Positions 3,338 through 24,836 of a stretch of 35,323 nucleotides of DNA are shown here, one piece after another. Origin of the DNA: a virus; IMG/VR virus record IMGVR_UViG_3300007276_000140, positions 1 through 35,323 of that record; one strand, written 5' to 3'. The notes under the pieces were generated by a model. It saw only the letters and a program-made list of their open reading frames with translations, made no database searches and was not told the DNA's origin. Within the stretch, counting starts at the first letter, position 1, and each line of letters begins with the position of its first letter. The position numbers were made by a program, and so were the translations under genes.

Positions 3338-4009
3338 ATGAATGAACCCATAGACGATTTACTATTCTCAAAAAAACCGAGGACCTTAAAAGGTGCTACT
3401 TCTTTATTTAGAGAAGAAGCTAATTTTATCCAACTGCCTCCTCCCCCAGCTAACTCTAGCTTAGATACTGCTAAAGATCTTCTTGCAGTACAGGGAGCAT
3501 CCTATATTCGAAAAGAAGCTCTGGAAAAAAGTATTAAAAAACATGATAAAGACCCTGCTTTTTCTGTTAAGATGTATATGTCAATCTTCGGTCTTGAGTA
3601 TGACCAAAAGTATATCAACCGAGTTTTAGACGAGTCCTCAGTAATCATCAGTGGTCTAAAGAATAAATTTAACAGGCCCAGGCCACATCAACTCTGCTCC
3701 TACTTCGGTATGGAGGTGGATGTCTTTAAAAGTGCTACTGCTAAGACTCCCTCTTACCCTAGCGGCCATACAACGCAGGCTAGGCTCATCGCAGAGATAT
3801 ATGGGTCTAAGTATCCCGAACATCGCTCTAATCTTCTGAAGGCTGCTGAGGAGTGTGGGCAGGGACGTATAATGGCTGGCTTACACTTTCCACAGGACCA
3901 CGTGGTAGGTCGTTATCTAGCCAAAAGATTATTCAAAGCGTTAAAGCCTTCAGCGGCTATTGAGTATGATCAACGCTACGAAGTAGCTTCTAAGAAGAAG
4001 AAAAAATAA
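3338..4009 (+). CDS. PAP2-superfamily (class A acid-phosphatase-like) phosphatase, soluble
   Basis: The product has 223 residues and carries all three signature motifs of the PAP2/acid phosphatase superfamily: K108-x6-R115-P116, P-S-G-H at 141-144, and R177-x5-H183-x3-D187. The two histidines and the basic residues form the phosphate-transfer site. Lipid phosphate phosphatases of this superfamily have six membrane helices. This protein has no obvious membrane helix or signal peptide, so it fits the soluble branch. Substrate unknown: lipid or lipopolysaccharide phosphates, polyphosphate or nucleotides are possible. It has an AAAGG ribosome binding site and follows the charged protein gene in the same direction. 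The very basic tail (five final lysines) may aid DNA or membrane contact. The superfamily call is firm, the biological role is not. Confidence 0.88.
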   Translation: MNEPIDDLLFSKKPRTLKGATSLFREEANFIQLPPPPANSSLDTAKDLLAVQGASYIRKEALEKSIKKHDKDPAFSVKMYMSIFGLEYDQKYINRVLDESSVIISGLKNKFNRPRPHQLCSYFGMEVDVFKSATAKTPSYPSGHTTQARLIAEIYGSKYPEHRSNLLKAAEECGQGRIMAGLHFPQDHVVGRYLAKRLFKALKPSAAIEYDQRYEVASKKKKK

Positions 4010-7836: not shown

Positions 7837-12316
<4,480 letters not shown>

Positions 12317-12317
<1 letters not shown>

Positions 12318-12562: not shown

Positions 12563-12786
12563 TCAAGGAGATGCCCCGTCTTTAGGAGACGGATAACTCT
12601 TTGTGTGTAGGTTCTCCTTAGATTATTTAAGGAGTTAGACATATTCTCTAGCTTAGTAATACCCTCTACGCTAACATCATCACTTGCTAGAAAATTTCCC
12701 AGTTCTGCGTGAAGCCAGTTGAGATCTGATATTTCGGATGTGTTTAGCTTACTTCGTATTTCATTAAGTTCGTTAGGGTTTTTCAT
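12559..12786 (-). CDS. Small unknown protein coupled to the helicase
   Basis: The product has 75 residues, is mostly helical by composition, and has no motif I recognise. The start overlaps the helicase stop as ATGA, so it is the second gene of a two-gene leftward unit and is likely made in step with the helicase. In T4 a small gene (uvsW.1) also lies next to uvsW, but I see no sequence basis to equate them. A 6-base-pair perfect stem (CCGTCT/AGACGG, 12576-12592) sits in its last codons, at the convergent end with the rightward gene. Confidence 0.7.
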   Translation of the reverse strand: MKNPNELNEIRSKLNTSEISDLNWLHAELGNFLASDDVSVEGITKLENMSNSLNNLRRTYTQRVIRLLKTGHLLD

Positions 12787-14156
12787 AATATTCTCACCTC
12801 GTGTCCTTCGTTAGTATAATGTTTTTTTCTTGCAAGAGAGTGCTCTTTTAAGTATTTTTCTTTATCTAGGAAATCATAAACAAAAACTTTATCTTTTGAT
12901 TTATGACGGCGTAAAGCCCTTCCTAAAGCTTGGAGAGTAGCAATCTCAGACTTCATACCCCTTGCATTAATGAAATGGGTGATTTCTTCAATGTTAACTC
13001 CTGTTTGCAGGATTTTAGTGCCAATAAGCACACTAGAAGTTTTATGTCTTCGGAATTTGGATATAGCGTTATACCGCTCTCCGATGGAATCACTCCCTTG
13101 CAGGAACTCACAATTTCCTCCAAACAGCTTTTCCAGGGTTCTTCCGTGATCAAGTGATTTGGTAAGAACAAGGATACGGCTTTTGGGGTTTCTTTTTTTA
13201 ATGTCATTAACTATATCCTTAATAATATTGTTTCTATTCTCATTATAGACAATATACTCATCATATGCCTCCATATAGGTCATATCTTCATCTATACCAC
13301 TGGCTGTATACTCTCTGTTTATTAGCTGGATAACGGGCTTTGTCAGCTTTCCTGAGTCTACTAGGCCAGATGTATCTATAACGCTCCATACAGGGCCAAG
13401 AGACCCCTCTAGATTGAGTTTTGGAATAATATCGGATGGTGGGGTAGCTGTGAATCCGATGCGGTAGATAGCGTTAGGGAAGCTTCTGAGAGCAGCTAAC
13501 GTAGTTTTACCATTTGCAAACTCATGACACTCGTCTACCATCAATACTTCTGCTTCCTCTAAGTGTGTATCTAAAATTCTTTCTATACTTTGCACAGTGC
13601 AGAGCATAATATCACCCTGAATGAAGCCTTCTCCGTAACAAAGTCCGATATTGTCCATTCCGCACGTTTTAGTGAGAAATTCATAACTTTGAGTTAGTAG
13701 CTGTTTTGCATTAAAAAGCAGTACCATCTTCCTCCCAGCCAATGCTTTGACCAATCCTGCCATAATCAGTGTCTTCCCAGATCCCGTGGGGGACTTGATT
13801 ATACCCCTCATATTCTCTAATCCCCTTTCAATAAGCTCTTTTTGATAGTCATAATATTCAAAGTTATTAATAGTGTAGTTTTTATCGTAGTTAGGTTTAG
13901 TTTCTCCTCCCTCGTATACAATATCAGGAGAGCAGTCTATTTTTTTTAGGTCATCTAGTATCCTAGAAAGTAATCCAGTTCTAAAAGTACCATTTTTAGC
14001 TAGGAAGTGTACTTTTCCATCCCACTGTCTTTTCTTATAAGCAGGAGAATATTGATATCCAGGAGCTTTCTCCGAGTATAATCTATATAAAGCATCTAGA
14101 ATATCAGGATTATCCGTTTCTAATCTTGAATTTAGTGTATTTATGTGGATTTTCAT
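12783..14156 (-). CDS. uvsW: UvsW-like SF2 DNA helicase
   Basis: The product has 457 residues from the chosen ATG at 14154-14156. In T4, UvsW unwinds branched DNA and R-loops and helps the switch to recombination-dependent replication. Visible SF2 motifs in order: a Q-like D-Y-Q-K-E region, Walker A S-P-T-G-S-G-K-T (about 119-126), D-E-C-H (about 207-210), G-F-T-A-T-P-P (about 235-241), T-G-V-N with the following linker, and motif VI Q-A-L-G-R-A-L-R-R (about 418-426). The N-terminal 90 residues, with W-D-G-K near 40, match the UvsW N-terminal DNA-binding domain. A longer start at 14246 would overlap the opposite gene's start by 45 bases and adds a non-matching hydrophobic leader, so I rejected it. 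A TATAAT lies six bases before the chosen ATG. Confidence 0.93.
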   Translation of the reverse strand: MKIHINTLNSRLETDNPDILDALYRLYSEKAPGYQYSPAYKKRQWDGKVHFLAKNGTFRTGLLSRILDDLKKIDCSPDIVYEGGETKPNYDKNYTINNFEYYDYQKELIERGLENMRGIIKSPTGSGKTLIMAGLVKALAGRKMVLLFNAKQLLTQSYEFLTKTCGMDNIGLCYGEGFIQGDIMLCTVQSIERILDTHLEEAEVLMVDECHEFANGKTTLAALRSFPNAIYRIGFTATPPSDIIPKLNLEGSLGPVWSVIDTSGLVDSGKLTKPVIQLINREYTASGIDEDMTYMEAYDEYIVYNENRNNIIKDIVNDIKKRNPKSRILVLTKSLDHGRTLEKLFGGNCEFLQGSDSIGERYNAISKFRRHKTSSVLIGTKILQTGVNIEEITHFINARGMKSEIATLQALGRALRRHKSKDKVFVYDFLDKEKYLKEHSLARKKHYTNEGHEVRIL

Positions 14157-14201
14157 TACACTATTATAGAATATATCTATTTGTAGATATAGGAGTATTT
14201 T
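14157..14201. promoter_or_regulatory. Divergent promoter region between helicase and gp26-like gene
   Basis: The 45-base gap has CTATTATAG (14160-14168, containing TATAAT on the minus strand) next to the helicase start. On the rightward side it has AATATATC and AGGAG, the latter seven bases before the ATG at 14202. The leftward TATAAT is so close to the helicase ATG that its transcript would be nearly leaderless. Confidence 0.4.
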
Positions 14202-14972
14202 ATGACAGAACAAGCCTCGCCAAAGCCCCAGGAACAGATTAATCAAATCTCAGAACAGCAAATTATTGACAATATCTTAAAAAATATGCCCAGTAATGAT
14301 GAGGTTGCTGTAGAATTGCCTTCTAAAAATAAATTTTATAATTTAGTAGACCCATCAAAGCCGATTTCTCTAAAGCCTATGACATTTGATGATGAAAGAG
14401 CAATGATGAGTAAGAAAAGTGGGGGATCTGACATTATCAATATCTTACTTTCTAGATGTATGACTAACCTGGATGTGGGGTCTCTTCTTCAGATGGACAA
14501 ATTGTACCTGATTATGAAGCTTAGAGAAATTTCTTATGGTGACGACTACAATGCTTCTATTACATGTGAAAATTGTAAAACAGAAAACAAAGTAAAGTTC
14601 CAATTGGGATCTTTGCCTGTTACTTACGTAGATGACGATTATACCAATCCTATTACTATTGAGCTTCCTATATTAAAAAAGGAAGTTAAGTTAACTTTAC
14701 CAAGAGTTAAGGATGAAAGTTACTTTAGCACTGGGGAGAAGGCTATTAGTAATCTTTGGAGATTTGTAGAATCCATCGGAGGATGTGAGGCTAAAACTGT
14801 CATCTCTAAAGTTATTCCGCAGCTACCTTTAAAGGACGCTCATGTTATTTTAGATGCTTTAGGAGGTGCTGACTACGGTATTAATACAAAAGTTAGATTT
14901 GACTGTAACTATTGTTCCCACAGCGAAGTAATGGAGTTACCTATAACTTCTGATTTTTTTACAGGGAAATAG
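14202..14972 (+). CDS. Baseplate hub / tail assembly chaperone protein (T4 gp26-like), zero-frame product
   Basis: The product has 256 residues and resembles the T4 gp26 family of baseplate hub assembly proteins, which in contractile tails and related injection systems lie near the tape-measure gene. After a polar N-terminus, P-S-K-N-K-F-Y near 40 and L-K-P-M-T-F-D-D-E near 57 are family-like. Two CxxC pairs (C122/C125 and C235/C238) probably bind one zinc. The frame ends soon after a run of seven T (14954-14960) at T-G-K-stop. A -1 slip there would extend the protein by 64 residues (see the next entry). The ribosome binding site AGGAG is good. Family call from pattern memory. Confidence 0.8.
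   Translation: MTEQASPKPQEQINQISEQQIIDNILKNMPSNDEVAVELPSKNKFYNLVDPSKPISLKPMTFDDERAMMSKKSGGSDIINILLSRCMTNLDVGSLLQMDKLYLIMKLREISYGDDYNASITCENCKTENKVKFQLGSLPVTYVDDDYTNPITIELPILKKEVKLTLPRVKDESYFSTGEKAISNLWRFVESIGGCEAKTVISKVIPQLPLKDAHVILDALGGADYGINTKVRFDCNYCSHSEVMELPITSDFFTGK
14954..14960 (+). promoter_or_regulatory. Slippery heptamer T TTT TTT for -1 ribosomal frameshift
   Basis: In the zero frame the codons are GAT TTT TTT ACA GGG AAA TAG. The heptamer T_TTT_TTT fits the X_XXY_YYZ rule for tandem -1 slippage, and the zero-frame stop comes four codons later. After the slip the frame reads TAC AGG GAA and stays open to 15154. No strong downstream hairpin is obvious by eye. Confidence 0.65.
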
Positions 14973-15154
14973 CGGGATCATTTAATTTAAAAGAACTGCT
15001 ATATGAAGCCTATATACTTGTAAAGCATTGCCGTTTTACCTATGGTGATGTTAAAGACATGAGCCGTTCTGAGCGAAACGTGTTTTTAGAGTTTTTAACC
15101 AAAGAATTGGAAGACGAAAGAAATGCAAGTAAACAACACAGTAGTCGTAGATAG
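14960..15154 (+). CDS. -1 frame extension of the gp26-like protein (64 codons)
   Basis: The -1 frame after the slippery site encodes Y-R-E-I-A-G-S-F-N-L-K-E-L-L-Y-E-A-Y near its start, then H-C-R-F-T-Y-G-D-V-K-D-M and E-R-N-V-F-L-E-F-L. This looks like a real domain: it resembles the small proteins of contractile-tail clusters with an (E)-x-x-Y...H-x-x-(F/W)...E/D-(I/V)-x-x-(M/L)...R pattern (T4 gp51-like, or DUF6760-like in injection systems). The frame has no ATG, GTG or TTG early enough to encode it alone. The first ATG (15059) keeps only 31 codons. A fusion of about 317 residues by -1 frameshift is therefore the best reading. It overlaps the next gene start by 32 bases. Confidence 0.7.
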   Translation, partial: YREIAGSFNLKELLYEAYILVKHCRFTYGDVKDMSRSERNVFLEFLTKELEDERNASKQHSSRR

Positions 15155-16082
15155 AGGTAATCGTCCTAACATGACCCAAAGGGTGGGTCTTAGAACCTAC
15201 TTTATTAATGATGGAGCCTACATTGATCCCTACGAAATCAGTGGAGTGTCTGTTTTTGCTAAAAGTGCTACTTTAAGTCCAAACTCGGTTCTTGGAGCTA
15301 ATAACAACATCACAGCAGTTCCCTTAATGCAGTTTGGTGCATCGGGAGCAACACGACCAGTGGGTGCTGAGAATTCGAATAAGTTTGATGTAACTAATTA
15401 CAACCCTGCACTAACAGCTAGCGGTATTTATAGAATCAAACAAGGTGAGTATGTTGTAGTTTTCGATCAGACGCTCGCTTTATCAGGATTCGACAGCGTG
15501 AACAATGTCCAGGTTGCGGCAGCGGAGGCAAGCACTGTAGGAGATTACGTGGATATGTGGACAGTGAAGCTGGCTGAGGCTTCAGACTACCAAGTATTTA
15601 CCAACAACTTCACGTTAAATGAAGATACCTTCTTTACCTTTGTAGAACCTCTTCTTCTAACCACCAGTAACAAGCTTTTAAATAAGCATGTTAGATTGGG
15701 AGAAAAAGTAGACCTGAAGATAACCACGGAAACAACCGTTCAGAATCAGGATATTTTACACTCTGTTCAAAATATCTTTAAGGAGTCGGTAATTACTGAC
15801 GCTACCCTGGAAATCCGTAGAGTGAATCAAGATTTACATTTTGATGGACCATTTACGGTGTCATCCTTTTCAGATACAGCGGCAACTCCGACGAGCAATC
15901 CAGTGACTATTACTCAGGATAATACCCTTATCCTTAACTGGGATACTACGACAATCAAAGACTTAGTATCTTTCCAAAATGGAACATTCGGAAGTTTAAC
16001 AGGAACTTATAGTGTACAAGCGAAATATACCTTGCTAAATGAACTAATCATAAGTCCACTGTTTTATCTCACAGTGTCGTAA
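15123..16082 (+). CDS. Unknown virion structural protein
   Basis: The product has 319 residues, rich in Thr, Val, Asn and Ser with alternating hydrophobic residues, as in beta-structured virion proteins. No catalytic motif, signal peptide or membrane helix. The N-terminus carries R-T-Y-F-I-N-D-G-A-Y-I-D-P-Y-E-I, which I remember only from unnamed phage structural proteins. It lies between the gp26-like gene and the tape measure gene, so a tail or neck role is likely. The start overlaps the frameshift extension, and the only purine-rich sequence near the ATG (GACGAAAG) is weak, so it may depend on translation of the upstream frames. Its stop codon lies within the perfect 16S-complementary sequence at 16080. 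Confidence 0.75.
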   Translation: MQVNNTVVVDRGNRPNMTQRVGLRTYFINDGAYIDPYEISGVSVFAKSATLSPNSVLGANNNITAVPLMQFGASGATRPVGAENSNKFDVTNYNPALTASGIYRIKQGEYVVVFDQTLALSGFDSVNNVQVAAAEASTVGDYVDMWTVKLAEASDYQVFTNNFTLNEDTFFTFVEPLLLTTSNKLLNKHVRLGEKVDLKITTETTVQNQDILHSVQNIFKESVITDATLEIRRVNQDLHFDGPFTVSSFSDTAATPTSNPVTITQDNTLILNWDTTTIKDLVSFQNGTFGSLTGTYSVQAKYTLLNELIISPLFYLTVS

Positions 16083-17055
16083 GGAGGTGATTTATGAGAT
16101 AGTCGTAATCGTACTTTATTGTACGAAGCTCGACGAACCCCTGTAAGTCGATGCCCTTCATTAGAGCATCATTCCAATCTTTAACTTCCGAAGGAGGATG
16201 GCAGATGTAAAGGTCTGCCATTCTTTTTATGCGTCTAAGGTAATCAAACTTTCCTACGCCACGTCTTCCCGCATCATCGTTATCATACCCTATGATAATT
16301 CTGCCAGTAAAGTCTTTCAACGCCTCTACCTGATACTGTGATACGGAACATCCCATTGTACAAGTAGCGTTAACACCTGTTATCTGGAGTGAGATCGCGT
16401 CCAACGGCCCCTCACAGACAACCACATAATCTTCACCCATGTTGAAAGGATAAAGTATATGAGAAGATTTAGGCCACCCCTCAGAAGGGTTTAAGTATTT
16501 AGGAGTCTGATCCCCTAAGGTGCGTGCTTGAAAATAAAAAAGTTCACCATCCTCCTCAAAAGGGACAATCAATCTGCCAGCGTATGGTCCTTTGGTGGAT
16601 ACGTAGTACTTGGAGTCTTCGGTTTCTAGATTAAATAGCTTACGCTCATAAAGGAATGTCCAAGCTTTAAGAACCAGACTGTTATTAGAAGTATAATCCT
16701 CAACGGTTACGGGAAGAAGGTGGAGGTCCTCAGCTTCCGCCTGCGGGATTATAGTAGAAGGTTCTAAGTTTTTAGCGAAACTTCCATCAAGCTCTTTAAA
16801 GAGTATTTCAGACTCGGCTTGGTTATAAGTTATGCCTTCTAAATATGCGTAGATCTGTAGGAAGTTCCCTTTGTTACCCGACTTAAAACACTGCCATAGA
16901 CCCGTATCTAAATTGATGCTCATATGACGCTTGAAGTCATTAGGCACAAAAATAGAAGGTACAATTAATTCTCGCTCTCCAGAGGAATATCGAGAATCAT
17001 CCTTAAACTTCTCTGTCAGGTAGTCTCTAATAACTTGAGGTGCTATAATGTTCAT
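16069..17055 (-). CDS. DNA primase with TOPRIM domain (gp61-like)
   Basis: The product has 328 residues from the ATG at 17053-17055. It makes RNA primers for lagging-strand synthesis, normally with a replicative helicase that is not in this window. The TOPRIM core is clear: V-V-V-C-E-G-P-L-D-A (the catalytic Glu) near 203 and G-Y-D-N-D-D-A-G-R (the D-x-D pair) near 251, then K-D-W-N-D-A-L. The N-terminal region (L-W-Q-C-F-K-S-G-N-K-G-N-F) lines up with the CHC2 zinc domain of primases but has lost the zinc ligands. A TTG start at 17091 is possible but would overlap the opposite gene further. The chosen ATG shares the 8-base sequence ATGTTCAT with the opposite start. Confidence 0.88.
   Translation of the reverse strand: MNIIAPQVIRDYLTEKFKDDSRYSSGERELIVPSIFVPNDFKRHMSINLDTGLWQCFKSGNKGNFLQIYAYLEGITYNQAESEILFKELDGSFAKNLEPSTIIPQAEAEDLHLLPVTVEDYTSNNSLVLKAWTFLYERKLFNLETEDSKYYVSTKGPYAGRLIVPFEEDGELFYFQARTLGDQTPKYLNPSEGWPKSSHILYPFNMGEDYVVVCEGPLDAISLQITGVNATCTMGCSVSQYQVEALKDFTGRIIIGYDNDDAGRRGVGKFDYLRRIKRMADLYICHPPSEVKDWNDALMKGIDLQGFVELRTIKYDYDYLINHLLTTL
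16080..16102 (+). promoter_or_regulatory. Perfect Shine-Dalgarno sequence followed by a two-codon ORF
   Basis: TAAGGAGGTGAT (16080-16091) is a 12-base perfect complement of the usual 16S rRNA 3' end. Three bases later comes ATG AGA TAG (16094-16102). The stop of the structural gene at 15123-16082 forms its first three bases. Such a strong site normally drives a major gene, but no gene follows on this strand for almost 950 bases. It lies in the 3' end of the leftward primase gene, where it encodes I-N-H-L-L-T-T. The function is unknown. Confidence 0.5.
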
Positions 17056-17833
17056 AAATACTATTTCAGAATCTAAATCTAAGACATTCAAGGAATGTCA
17101 ACTTAAATACCGTTATCGGTATGTTGATCGTATCAAAGAGGAGAGGACAAATACTGACCCTCTTCACTTCGGGTCATACATCCACAAAATCTTCGAGGAT
17201 GGCTTCCAAGCTAACACGCTCGATCAACTTACTGTTATAGCTGAGAATGTCAAAAAAGACTACACATTCTCAGAAACCTACAATCCTAAGATTAAAGTAT
17301 GTTTGGAGAACTTTTTAAGATTCAACGCTACACTGGCTGAGACAGTCTCAACTGAAATGGTTTACGAGATTATTTATGATAAGGAAAAAGATCTAAAACT
17401 AAATGGGATCATTGACCGAGTTATCAAAGGAAAGGACGGAGGGTATCTTATTATCGATTATAAAACATCCAAGCGCGAAAGCACTGAGCTAGACATGTAT
17501 CAAGATAGACAGATGATGGGATATGCCTACGCCATCCATAAGAAGCTGGGAGTGTCCCTAGCTAACATATCTGTTGCCCACTACTACCCGCTGACAAATA
17601 ACTTTGTAGCTTGTAAGTATTCCCCGAATCAGATCAAACAGTATCTAAAGGAGAAGGTTGATCAAATGTGGAAGATACGTAAGATGAAGAAGCCCGACTT
17701 CAAGGCCATGCAAAACCAGTTCTGTAATTGGTGTGGCTACAAGAACCTGTGTCCTGAGTTTAATTCTGGGCTGGTGTGCGAGCAAAGGCTCCAAGCACTA
17801 AAGGATGCCAAGAAGACTAAAAAGAAAAACTAA
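17048..17833 (+). CDS. PD-(D/E)XK nuclease of the RecB/Cas4 type with Fe-S cluster
   Basis: The product has 261 residues. It carries the PDDEXK nuclease core: H40-F-G-x-x-x-H46 helix, G-I-I-D123-R, and D137-Y-K139-T-S. Cysteines C17, C226, C229 and C235 follow the one-plus-three spacing that binds a 4Fe-4S cluster in Cas4, AddB and related exonucleases. Such enzymes resect DNA ends. In a T4-type phage it could act in recombination-dependent replication or host DNA breakdown. There are no Cas1/Cas2 genes or CRISPR repeats here, so it is not a CRISPR component. The ribosome binding site GAGGTG lies seven bases before the ATG, which is head-to-head with the primase start. Confidence 0.9.
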   Translation: MFINTISESKSKTFKECQLKYRYRYVDRIKEERTNTDPLHFGSYIHKIFEDGFQANTLDQLTVIAENVKKDYTFSETYNPKIKVCLENFLRFNATLAETVSTEMVYEIIYDKEKDLKLNGIIDRVIKGKDGGYLIIDYKTSKRESTELDMYQDRQMMGYAYAIHKKLGVSLANISVAHYYPLTNNFVACKYSPNQIKQYLKEKVDQMWKIRKMKKPDFKAMQNQFCNWCGYKNLCPEFNSGLVCEQRLQALKDAKKTKKKN

Positions 17834-22019: not shown

Positions 22020-24836
22020 ATGAATGCTCCTGCTATTAACATTGTAATGACCTATCGCCCTGAGATAATGATGGCTTTTCAAGCATCTCATTCTTTTAAG
22101 GAGTTTGAAGAGGAGAAAAAAAAGCTAGATGCTGCCGATAGAGCTAGCGGTAAAAAAGCTCATACCTATATATTCAATAATTCTCCTGCGTCAACTTTTT
22201 TAAAGCTTCAGCATTCGCTTAATAAGACTGACGGTATGTTTCTAGAGGTTGAACTTATAGATCCTCAAGGACTCTTCGAGGAAGCTATGCTCGATAACAG
22301 TGTTGAGGCTATGCTACCCATTGAAGATAACCCGTTAGCGGCTAGAATTAAAACGCTACAGAGAGATAAAGAGGCTTTAAACGCCGAGGCTCTTGAACTA
22401 AAAAGATCTATGGATCATAAGAGAGGTCCGACCAGTTGGATATCTTCCAAAGAGCGAAAATCTCTGCTTGGATCCATTGCGGACAAACAGGCACAGATAA
22501 CTTCAGAACTTGTTAAGTTAGAGGATGTTAGCCAAGAAAATTTAGGAGAAAATGTTTTCTTAAAAAGAAGGCAGCAGGAGGCATTGAAAGAGGGTGCTAC
22601 TTCTCAATTTCAAAGACCTTTATATGTAACCTATGGAATAGGGGATAACTTACTAGACTGGAGTCGGCCCCAATGTTTTGGAAACATTTTTTCGGTAAAA
22701 TACTCCTTTAATGGTTCAGGGGCTAGAAAGTTATCCTTGAAGATGGGTTCGGCAACACATCCAAATCTTCTTGTCGGAGAAGGATTATCTGTGTTTGGGG
22801 AAGCCTTTACAAAAGGTCTTCTAACTAAGGGATCTTCGGATCCTTTATTTAACAAAGATCAAACAAAGTCTCAAAGAGAAAACTACAAAAAATATTTAAA
22901 GGCAAAAAACAAGAGATTGCCTATGGAGGTGTTTGATACTGTTGACACCTATATTAATGCTTCAAAGCCAAGTTTCCACTTGGCAGTTACACAAGCCCTC
23001 ACCGAGTTTATTAAAGCAGGAACGCAAAACAATAACGTCCTCGTTCTCCTCCCAGACCTAGATAAGTATCTTGCCAATTACTTAGAGACCCTCCTGGTGG
23101 AGCAAAGAACTAAAATAATGACGTATTATCAGTTTGCCCCTCTTAGCGATAACGAATGGGATTTAAAAATGGGATTGGCATATTACGGAGCTTTTAGGGA
23201 AGCGTTAGAAGGAATCGGTTTAGGATTAAGTGAAAGTAGTAGGTATGCTATTTCTGGTAGGGAACCAGTTACTACCCAACCCATAGGCAGGAGCACTTTT
23301 GCTAACCTTGAAAAATCTGTTACTGCAAAAGAAGAAATAGTTGACTGGTTTCAAAGCCGAGAGATTAAAGCAATCGTACAGTGTGATTATGACAGGTCTA
23401 CTTCTTATCTAGATAAACTACAGAATGTGGCAGCTTGCATTAATAATAAAATTGTTGAGTTTTCAACTAGCTCGATTCCTGCGCTTAACCCTCAATTGCC
23501 TAAAGACTCTGGCCTTCCTATAGGAGAAACTGATTTTAATATCCTAACTTTAATGAAAGAAGCTACCTTAATTCCTTCTGATGATAAACCCGCACTTATT
23601 TGGGGAGACAGCGAATTAGTAACAGATTATTTGCTAGCTCATTCTTTAGAAAAAACTCAAGATAGTGAGAATACTGGATCACAGCGAAAGCAGCAGACCG
23701 ATAAGCTAAAAAAAGTAATTCATCCTATGGATATTCTAAATGGATTAGATTATGATTATATGCAAAAGGTAGAGGATTACATTATACCTATTCCTTGGTT
23801 GTCTGCTTTCGGGCAGGTACCCTGGGCTTCTGCAAACGAGGATGTGAGTATGTTCGATACCTTTGCTGGAGATTCTAACATCCTTTCTACTCAATTACGA
23901 GAACTTAAAAGGACTCAGCCTATACAGGTAAATCGTATGCCAGTATTTTCTTTTGGAACTAGCCACCCTAATATTTTATCTGTTGATTTTGAAATAGATG
24001 CAATTTATTACGCTGCTTTAGGAATGGCTGTGCCGACCCCTGATCCTTCTAATCAAATTGCAACGGGGATTATTAAACCAGGACAGGGTAAACTTATTAA
24101 TAAATACTTTAAAAAGTTAGAAGAAATAATTGAGAGTGATACGAGAAGCGAAGCTAAGATAAAGGAAACTCGTGAAAGATTAGTAGCTGAGGGAGTAGAC
24201 ATAGGAGATAAATATAAATCTAGAGATCCTTATGATCCCCCTGAACTATTTAAACAATACTTAAAAAACTGGTTTGGGGAAGCAATTACTGAAGAACAAG
24301 GACAACTTTATGATACGTTTGATGCTTTAAATAATAACTCAGCAGAGGATTCTGCAAGAAAAATAAAGAATCGAGGTGGAGATGATAAAGAAGAATATTA
24401 TAAATTTATGTGGAGAAATTTTGTTAATCTTTATAACAAATCAAAAGAAGTTCCTCTGTCGGTTCGTCTAATGCCTTCTAATACAGATCCATTGGGGCAG
24501 TCAATAGTTACTAGTACTAAAATGAAGGAAACAGTAGCAGAGCAGCCGTTTGCTGGGAGTATCTCTACTATTCCCATGTTTCATTTATCTAATACTAGAA
24601 ATACCATGGGAAGACCTTGCCTCTTAACATGTATTGAGCCTAGATTTAATCAAAGCTCTAATAAACTAGACCTACAAAGAACATGGTTTAGTGGTAAGTA
24701 TACTATCGCTGGTTTTAAGCATACTATAACAAATAGCAGGGCGGAGTCTGAATTCTACATCATGAAAGATCCTGCCAAAGGCACGGAGCTTAATGAAAAA
24801 TCTAACACATCTCCCCAAGAACTACCTATTAATTAA
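22020..24836 (+). CDS. Baseplate hub protein (gp27-like), enlarged
   Basis: The product has 938 residues. It lies between the gp53-like gene and the spike, where the hub gene is expected. The C-terminus has F-S-G-K-Y-T-I-A-G-F-K-H-T-I-T (about 892-906) followed by S-E-F-Y-I-M, a typical ending of hub and gpD-type proteins. The rest is not recognisable by eye. A coiled coil lies at about 110-180. It is more than twice the size of T4 gp27 (391), so extra domains are inserted. The ATG has no ribosome binding site, only TATATATT before it. Confidence 0.65.
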   Translation: MNAPAINIVMTYRPEIMMAFQASHSFKEFEEEKKKLDAADRASGKKAHTYIFNNSPASTFLKLQHSLNKTDGMFLEVELIDPQGLFEEAMLDNSVEAMLPIEDNPLAARIKTLQRDKEALNAEALELKRSMDHKRGPTSWISSKERKSLLGSIADKQAQITSELVKLEDVSQENLGENVFLKRRQQEALKEGATSQFQRPLYVTYGIGDNLLDWSRPQCFGNIFSVKYSFNGSGARKLSLKMGSATHPNLLVGEGLSVFGEAFTKGLLTKGSSDPLFNKDQTKSQRENYKKYLKAKNKRLPMEVFDTVDTYINASKPSFHLAVTQALTEFIKAGTQNNNVLVLLPDLDKYLANYLETLLVEQRTKIMTYYQFAPLSDNEWDLKMGLAYYGAFREALEGIGLGLSESSRYAISGREPVTTQPIGRSTFANLEKSVTAKEEIVDWFQSREIKAIVQCDYDRSTSYLDKLQNVAACINNKIVEFSTSSIPALNPQLPKDSGLPIGETDFNILTLMKEATLIPSDDKPALIWGDSELVTDYLLAHSLEKTQDSENTGSQRKQQTDKLKKVIHPMDILNGLDYDYMQKVEDYIIPIPWLSAFGQVPWASANEDVSMFDTFAGDSNILSTQLRELKRTQPIQVNRMPVFSFGTSHPNILSVDFEIDAIYYAALGMAVPTPDPSNQIATGIIKPGQGKLINKYFKKLEEIIESDTRSEAKIKETRERLVAEGVDIGDKYKSRDPYDPPELFKQYLKNWFGEAITEEQGQLYDTFDALNNNSAEDSARKIKNRGGDDKEEYYKFMWRNFVNLYNKSKEVPLSVRLMPSNTDPLGQSIVTSTKMKETVAEQPFAGSISTIPMFHLSNTRNTMGRPCLLTCIEPRFNQSSNKLDLQRTWFSGKYTIAGFKHTITNSRAESEFYIMKDPAKGTELNEKSNTSPQELPIN

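Follow-up and report, generated by a model that had tools for sequence, protein, structure and literature searches.

The window analyzed here, a stretch of 35,323 nucleotides from an uncultured phage (IMG/VR record IMGVR_UViG_3300007276_000140), contains a gp26-like gene that ends shortly after a run of seven T, beyond which the -1 frame is open and appears to encode protein. The question raised by this locus is how the segment in the -1 frame is expressed. Based on comparisons among related sequences, it is very likely that one gene at this locus encodes a T4-type tail assembly chaperone in two forms, a short one and a frameshifted long one. The features are as follows:

14202..14972, plus strand: gene of the putative gp26-like short tail assembly chaperone, with a 0-frame product of 256 aa (PF12322, phrog_150, AlphaFold model)
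14954..14960, plus strand: slippery heptamer T TTT TTT, positioned for tandem -1 slippage (X XXY YYZ phase)
14954..15154, plus strand: -1 frame segment, putative gp51-like helical C-terminal domain of the long form, 317 aa in total (conservation in 39 contigs, pN/pS, phrog_634, hhalign)
14961..14968, plus strand: 8-nt spacer from heptamer to hairpin (fold prediction)
14969..14975, plus strand: 5' arm of a predicted hairpin, including the 0-frame stop; may stimulate frameshifting but is weak in the window (fold prediction)
14970..14972, plus strand: 0-frame stop TAG, 9 nt past the heptamer, ending the short form
14996..15002, plus strand: 3' arm of the predicted hairpin (fold prediction)
15123..16082, plus strand: next gene, 319 aa, its start overlapping the end of the -1 segment
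18700..20706, plus strand: tape measure protein, presumed client of the chaperone (phrog_28, E 9.4e-15)

The 0-frame ORF ends in GAT TTT TTT ACA GGG AAA TAG, with three sense codons between the heptamer and the stop. In the -1 frame, a TGA lies immediately before the heptamer (14951-14953), and no further stop occurs until the TAG at 15152-15154. An earlier note on this DNA had described the heptamer ahead of the TAG and the open -1 frame, quoted a peptide from the segment, and stated that the segment has no usable start codon. The sequence agrees on all of these points: the heptamer is in phase, the quoted peptide is correct, and the first ATG, GTG, or TTG of the -1 frame is the ATG at 15059 (codon 35), which lies inside the conserved domain. 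Among the plus-strand genes checked in the window, an in-phase T_TTT_TTN is present at two of 8135 codon positions, and the one in the chaperone gene is the only one near a gene end. The other (TTTTTTA at 22196) is in the start region of ORF 22020-24836, distant from its stop, and is probably incidental.

A scan of viral contigs identified 39 relatives with 46–96% identity, hereafter the window clade. The earlier note had proposed an alignment of homologous loci to see whether the T-run and the open -1 frame are kept, and both are retained in all 39. An in-phase T TTT TTT or T TTT TTC is present in every relative (40 of 40 sequences when the window is included), and the distance from the heptamer to the 0-frame stop is exactly 9 nt in 39 of 39. 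Most relatives have six T followed by C (T TTT TTC) rather than seven T. The T preceding TTT TTY is constant although the codon that ends there varies (Asp, Asn, or Ser). The -1 frame encodes a conserved helical domain of approximately 60 residues, with a conserved core around EAYILVK..F.Y.DVK.M.R.ER..F. For codons 19–57 of this frame the median pN/pS is 0.30 (196 pairs), compared with 0.99 and 1.96 for the other frames. Moreover, the other two frames contain 249 and 113 stops among 32 sequences, whereas the -1 frame contains zero. The domain evolves as a protein in the -1 frame only. The overlap between the start of the next gene and the end of the -1 segment is also preserved in the loci examined.

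The 0-frame product matches PF12322 over nearly the full length of the profile (E 3.6e-17, positions 13–218 of 219) and phrog_150 'baseplate hub' (E 7.3e-20), and genes like it usually carry the annotation 'baseplate hub'. The AlphaFold model of the chaperone body has a mean pLDDT of 80.8. Its matches in BFVD are predicted gp26-family proteins, with the SP-15 'baseplate hub subunit' as the best (E 1.1e-18). Sequence and fold searches against solved structures yielded no significant match (YqbN entry 3klu at E 2.3), and no relevant family was found in Rfam. The -1 segment has a weak match to phrog_634 'baseplate hub assembly catalyst' (E 0.0098), and its domain is predicted to form four helices (pLDDT 81). 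In addition, the chaperone body has two invariant CxxC pairs, C122/C125 and C235/C238, which suggests a candidate zinc-binding site.

Both gp26 (208 aa, E 9e-64) and gp51 (249 aa, E 4e-52) of T4 belong to PF12322. Their genes are located at L042:3303-3929 and L042:3980-4729, respectively, and gp51 runs about 48 residues beyond the family region. The -1 domain of the window clade matches the gp51-type segments of cyanophages and their relatives (hhalign E 4e-11), and these segments match the C-terminus of T4 gp51 (E 1.6e-5); compared directly with T4 gp51 alone, the window domain gives a weak hhalign score (E 0.019, probability 2.5%). Judged from these profile matches, gp26 and gp51 of T4 are paralogues, and the C-terminal extension of gp51 is the counterpart of the frameshift domain in other phages. 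Because both T4 proteins belong to one family and the C-terminal matches are linked, T4 makes its short and long forms from two divergent genes, whereas in the window phage a single recoded gene very probably supplies both. The heptamer is absent in T4-type gp26 loci, which served as controls. In T4, gp26 and gp51 have been listed as hub assembly chaperones, and gp51 is needed yet not found in the virion (PMC3004832). The earlier note had explained the locus as a gp26-like/gp51-like fusion made by -1 frameshifting. The frameshift stands as the best explanation, but no fusion of two distinct proteins is involved: since T4 gp51 is itself a complete gp26-family protein with an extension, the gene would yield one chaperone in a short version and a long one.

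The same -1 layout is present in the isolates S-PM2, P-HM1, S-SSM7, pf16, ACP17, phi-pp2 (KVP40-like), OLIVR6, and Asswx_1, as well as in 121Q, Atu_ph07, PA5oct, RAS14, and XacN1. A T TTT TTC followed by one sense codon and a stop is common to 52 distinct cyanophage-type or jumbo contigs, as opposed to the T TTT TTT and three sense codons of the window subgroup. None of the related-phage records examined annotates the frame-joined product. These genomes bear on the possibility that the -1 segment is expressed independently as a small gene, through termination-reinitiation or from a non-AUG start. Such an arrangement is suggested by the gp51 genes of S-PM2, P-HM1, and S-SSM7, which are annotated from ATGs 2–20 nt past the gp26 stop, and by Vibrio phage VP-1, in which the stop overlaps the start of a gp51-like ORF as TAATG. 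However, start codons in the -1 frame of the window clade first appear at codons 14–35, all inside the conserved domain, and no conserved start codon was found ahead of the domain in this clade. Many cyanophage-type loci (e.g., L087, L095, and L100) also have no ATG before the domain, yet the heptamer and its phase are kept in all of them. Given that a conserved in-phase heptamer would be unneeded under separate initiation, we consider a separate gene improbable.

Downstream of the heptamer, a stem-loop at a distance of about 8 nt is predicted in most relatives, with differing sequences. For example, CTAGAAGAAG pairs with CTTCTTCTAG in L013, and L006 has a long stem of other letters. Stability was scored against shuffles that kept both the encoded -1 protein and its codon usage. 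The window clade has a median z-score of -1.67, as opposed to -0.59 in a control stretch; for 40 cyanophage-type loci, the corresponding values are -2.59 and -0.48. The hairpin of the window has a minimum free energy of -8.4 kcal/mol and a z-score of -0.99, which is not significant (30 of 200 protein-preserving shuffles were equally stable). RNAalifold predicted no shared pairs in the window subgroup; in the sister subgroup, it predicted five invariant or near-invariant pairs with no compensatory changes. Alignment-based folding therefore gave no covariation support for a hairpin in the window clade. The likely reason is that the subgroups differ by 3 nt in pairing register and that the arms are also coding sequence for the -1 domain. 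Taken together, a hairpin is a probable feature of the group and a candidate feature in the window itself.

These patterns are also relevant to transcriptional slippage, in which an RNA polymerase adding or omitting bases on the T7 run would yield the long form. Some polymerases could plausibly slip on seven consecutive T, and transcripts of mixed length could reach the -1 frame. Nevertheless, the phase for tandem slippage and the position of the hairpin are kept in the relatives with only six T and a C, and the Phe codons, which can re-pair in both frames, fit ribosomal rather than transcriptional slippage, so this explanation appears highly improbable. As for a pseudogene or a continuous gene broken by a miscounted T-run, homopolymers are error-prone, but this negligible alternative is refuted by the comparative data. 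The 39 contigs and many isolate genomes have the two-frame layout with exact spacing, and its retention in all 39 contigs far exceeds what chance would give, ruling out a sequencing error in the T-run. The outcomes that the earlier note had listed as refuting its proposal were accordingly not found in the window clade, where no start precedes the segment, the slippery run is never lost, and the T-run is free of error.

Under ribosomal -1 frameshifting, we infer slippage at an efficiency that would leave most ribosomes to terminate at the TAG at 14970 and release the short gp26-like form of 256 aa. Some ribosomes would slip back by one base on T TTT TTT, probably aided by the hairpin about 8 nt downstream, and would add a helical tail of 64 residues to give the long gp51-like form of 317 aa. 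If the pair works like lambda G and GT, the short form may cover the tape measure protein. The long form would be the rarer of the two, and its C-terminal domain may recruit tail tube subunits. The window gene and lambda G/GT are alike in having a -1 slippage site toward the 3' end of a chaperone gene that precedes the tape measure gene, and in that the long form has an additional C-terminal domain. They differ in their slippery sites and in that the tape measure gene of the window is several genes downstream; no sequence relation between lambda G and the window gene was found.

The G-T frameshift has been described as conserved in long-tailed phages 'except T4' (Atkins et al., 2016; PMC5009743). 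The earlier note knew of no described case among T4-type homologues, but one exists. As cited in later papers (PMC10885494, PMC12846349), Vladimirov, Gautam and Davidson (2022; Virology 566:9-15) identified T4-like chaperone genes, and the latter paper cites this work for poly-T -1 slippery sequences in T4-like short-form genes. Some T4-like phages are described as having a short gene and a longer fusion gene in place of frameshifting (PMC10885494). Because poly-T -1 sites have already been cited for T4-like chaperone genes, the phenomenon is, on these accounts, known, and the locus in the window represents a further, well-supported case. The chaperone locus of Vandenendeviridae and Andersonviridae (PMC12846349), likened here by description, also has a conserved -1 frameshift at a poly-T motif in a myovirus chaperone gene, although its motif (GTTTTT) differs from the T TTT TTT of the window. 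If these readings hold, many genes of cyanophages and T4-like jumbo phages that are annotated 'baseplate hub', together with short ORFs called 'gp51' or hypothetical, would represent one recoded chaperone gene. This suggests that the lambda-type principle of short and long forms applies to much of the T4 superfamily, T4 itself being the two-gene exception.

Viral scans with gp26 of 121Q and of SP-15 as queries returned three loci and one locus, respectively. In SP-15 and LuckySocke, the gene lies between the tail tube gene and a tail gene as long as a tape measure gene; in LIS04, it lies between the tail tube gene and an annotated tape measure gene; this placement is the chaperone position in all three. 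A matching segment is found in the +1 frame in SP-15, LIS04, SagM-GXN1, LuckySocke, Mel-JY01, and LR756508, and three such segments match those of cyanophages (hhalign E 7.7e-6). The loci of SP-15 (L043:3977-4913), LIS04 (L044:3986-4928), and SagM-GXN1 (L045:3998-5012) have in common a [GAC]CC CGA TT[CT] directly ahead of the 0-frame stop, which is a candidate +1 frameshift site. Alternatively, SP-15 and LIS04 may use a -2 slip on upstream Phe codons. The gp51-like domain in the +1 frame is without annotation in the SP-15, LIS04, and SagM-GXN1 records. The VP-1 locus (L058:1189-2117) has no T TTT TTY heptamer and carries a GTTTTT near its end.

There is about an even chance that the T4 superfamily produces its short and long chaperones in at least three ways, namely by -1 frameshifting on T TTT TTY in the window clade, cyanophages, and jumbo phages; by +1 or -2 frameshifting in SP-15, LIS04, SagM-GXN1, and others; and from two paralogous genes in T4. 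If so, the direction of recoding would have switched in evolution while the product pair stayed the same. Such repeated change of recoding mode (-1, +1 or -2, and duplication) within one chaperone family is possibly new.

The neighbors of the chaperone gene in the window include genes for the portal, terminase, gp25-like and other wedge proteins, and the tape measure protein; between the last of these and the chaperone gene lie three genes pointing rightward and one pointing leftward. Genes for a helicase and a primase, both leftward (12783-14246 and 16069-17091 on the minus strand), flank the chaperone gene amid the rightward tail genes, and a leftward ORF at the position of the primase gene is retained in relatives. 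Elsewhere in the window, the region 9651-12317 encodes a tail-fibre-like protein with long collagen-like G-P-T repeats. Finally, the product of 3338-4009 resembles a putative PAP2-type acid phosphatase, based on PSGHT and GLHFPQDH motifs recognized by eye.
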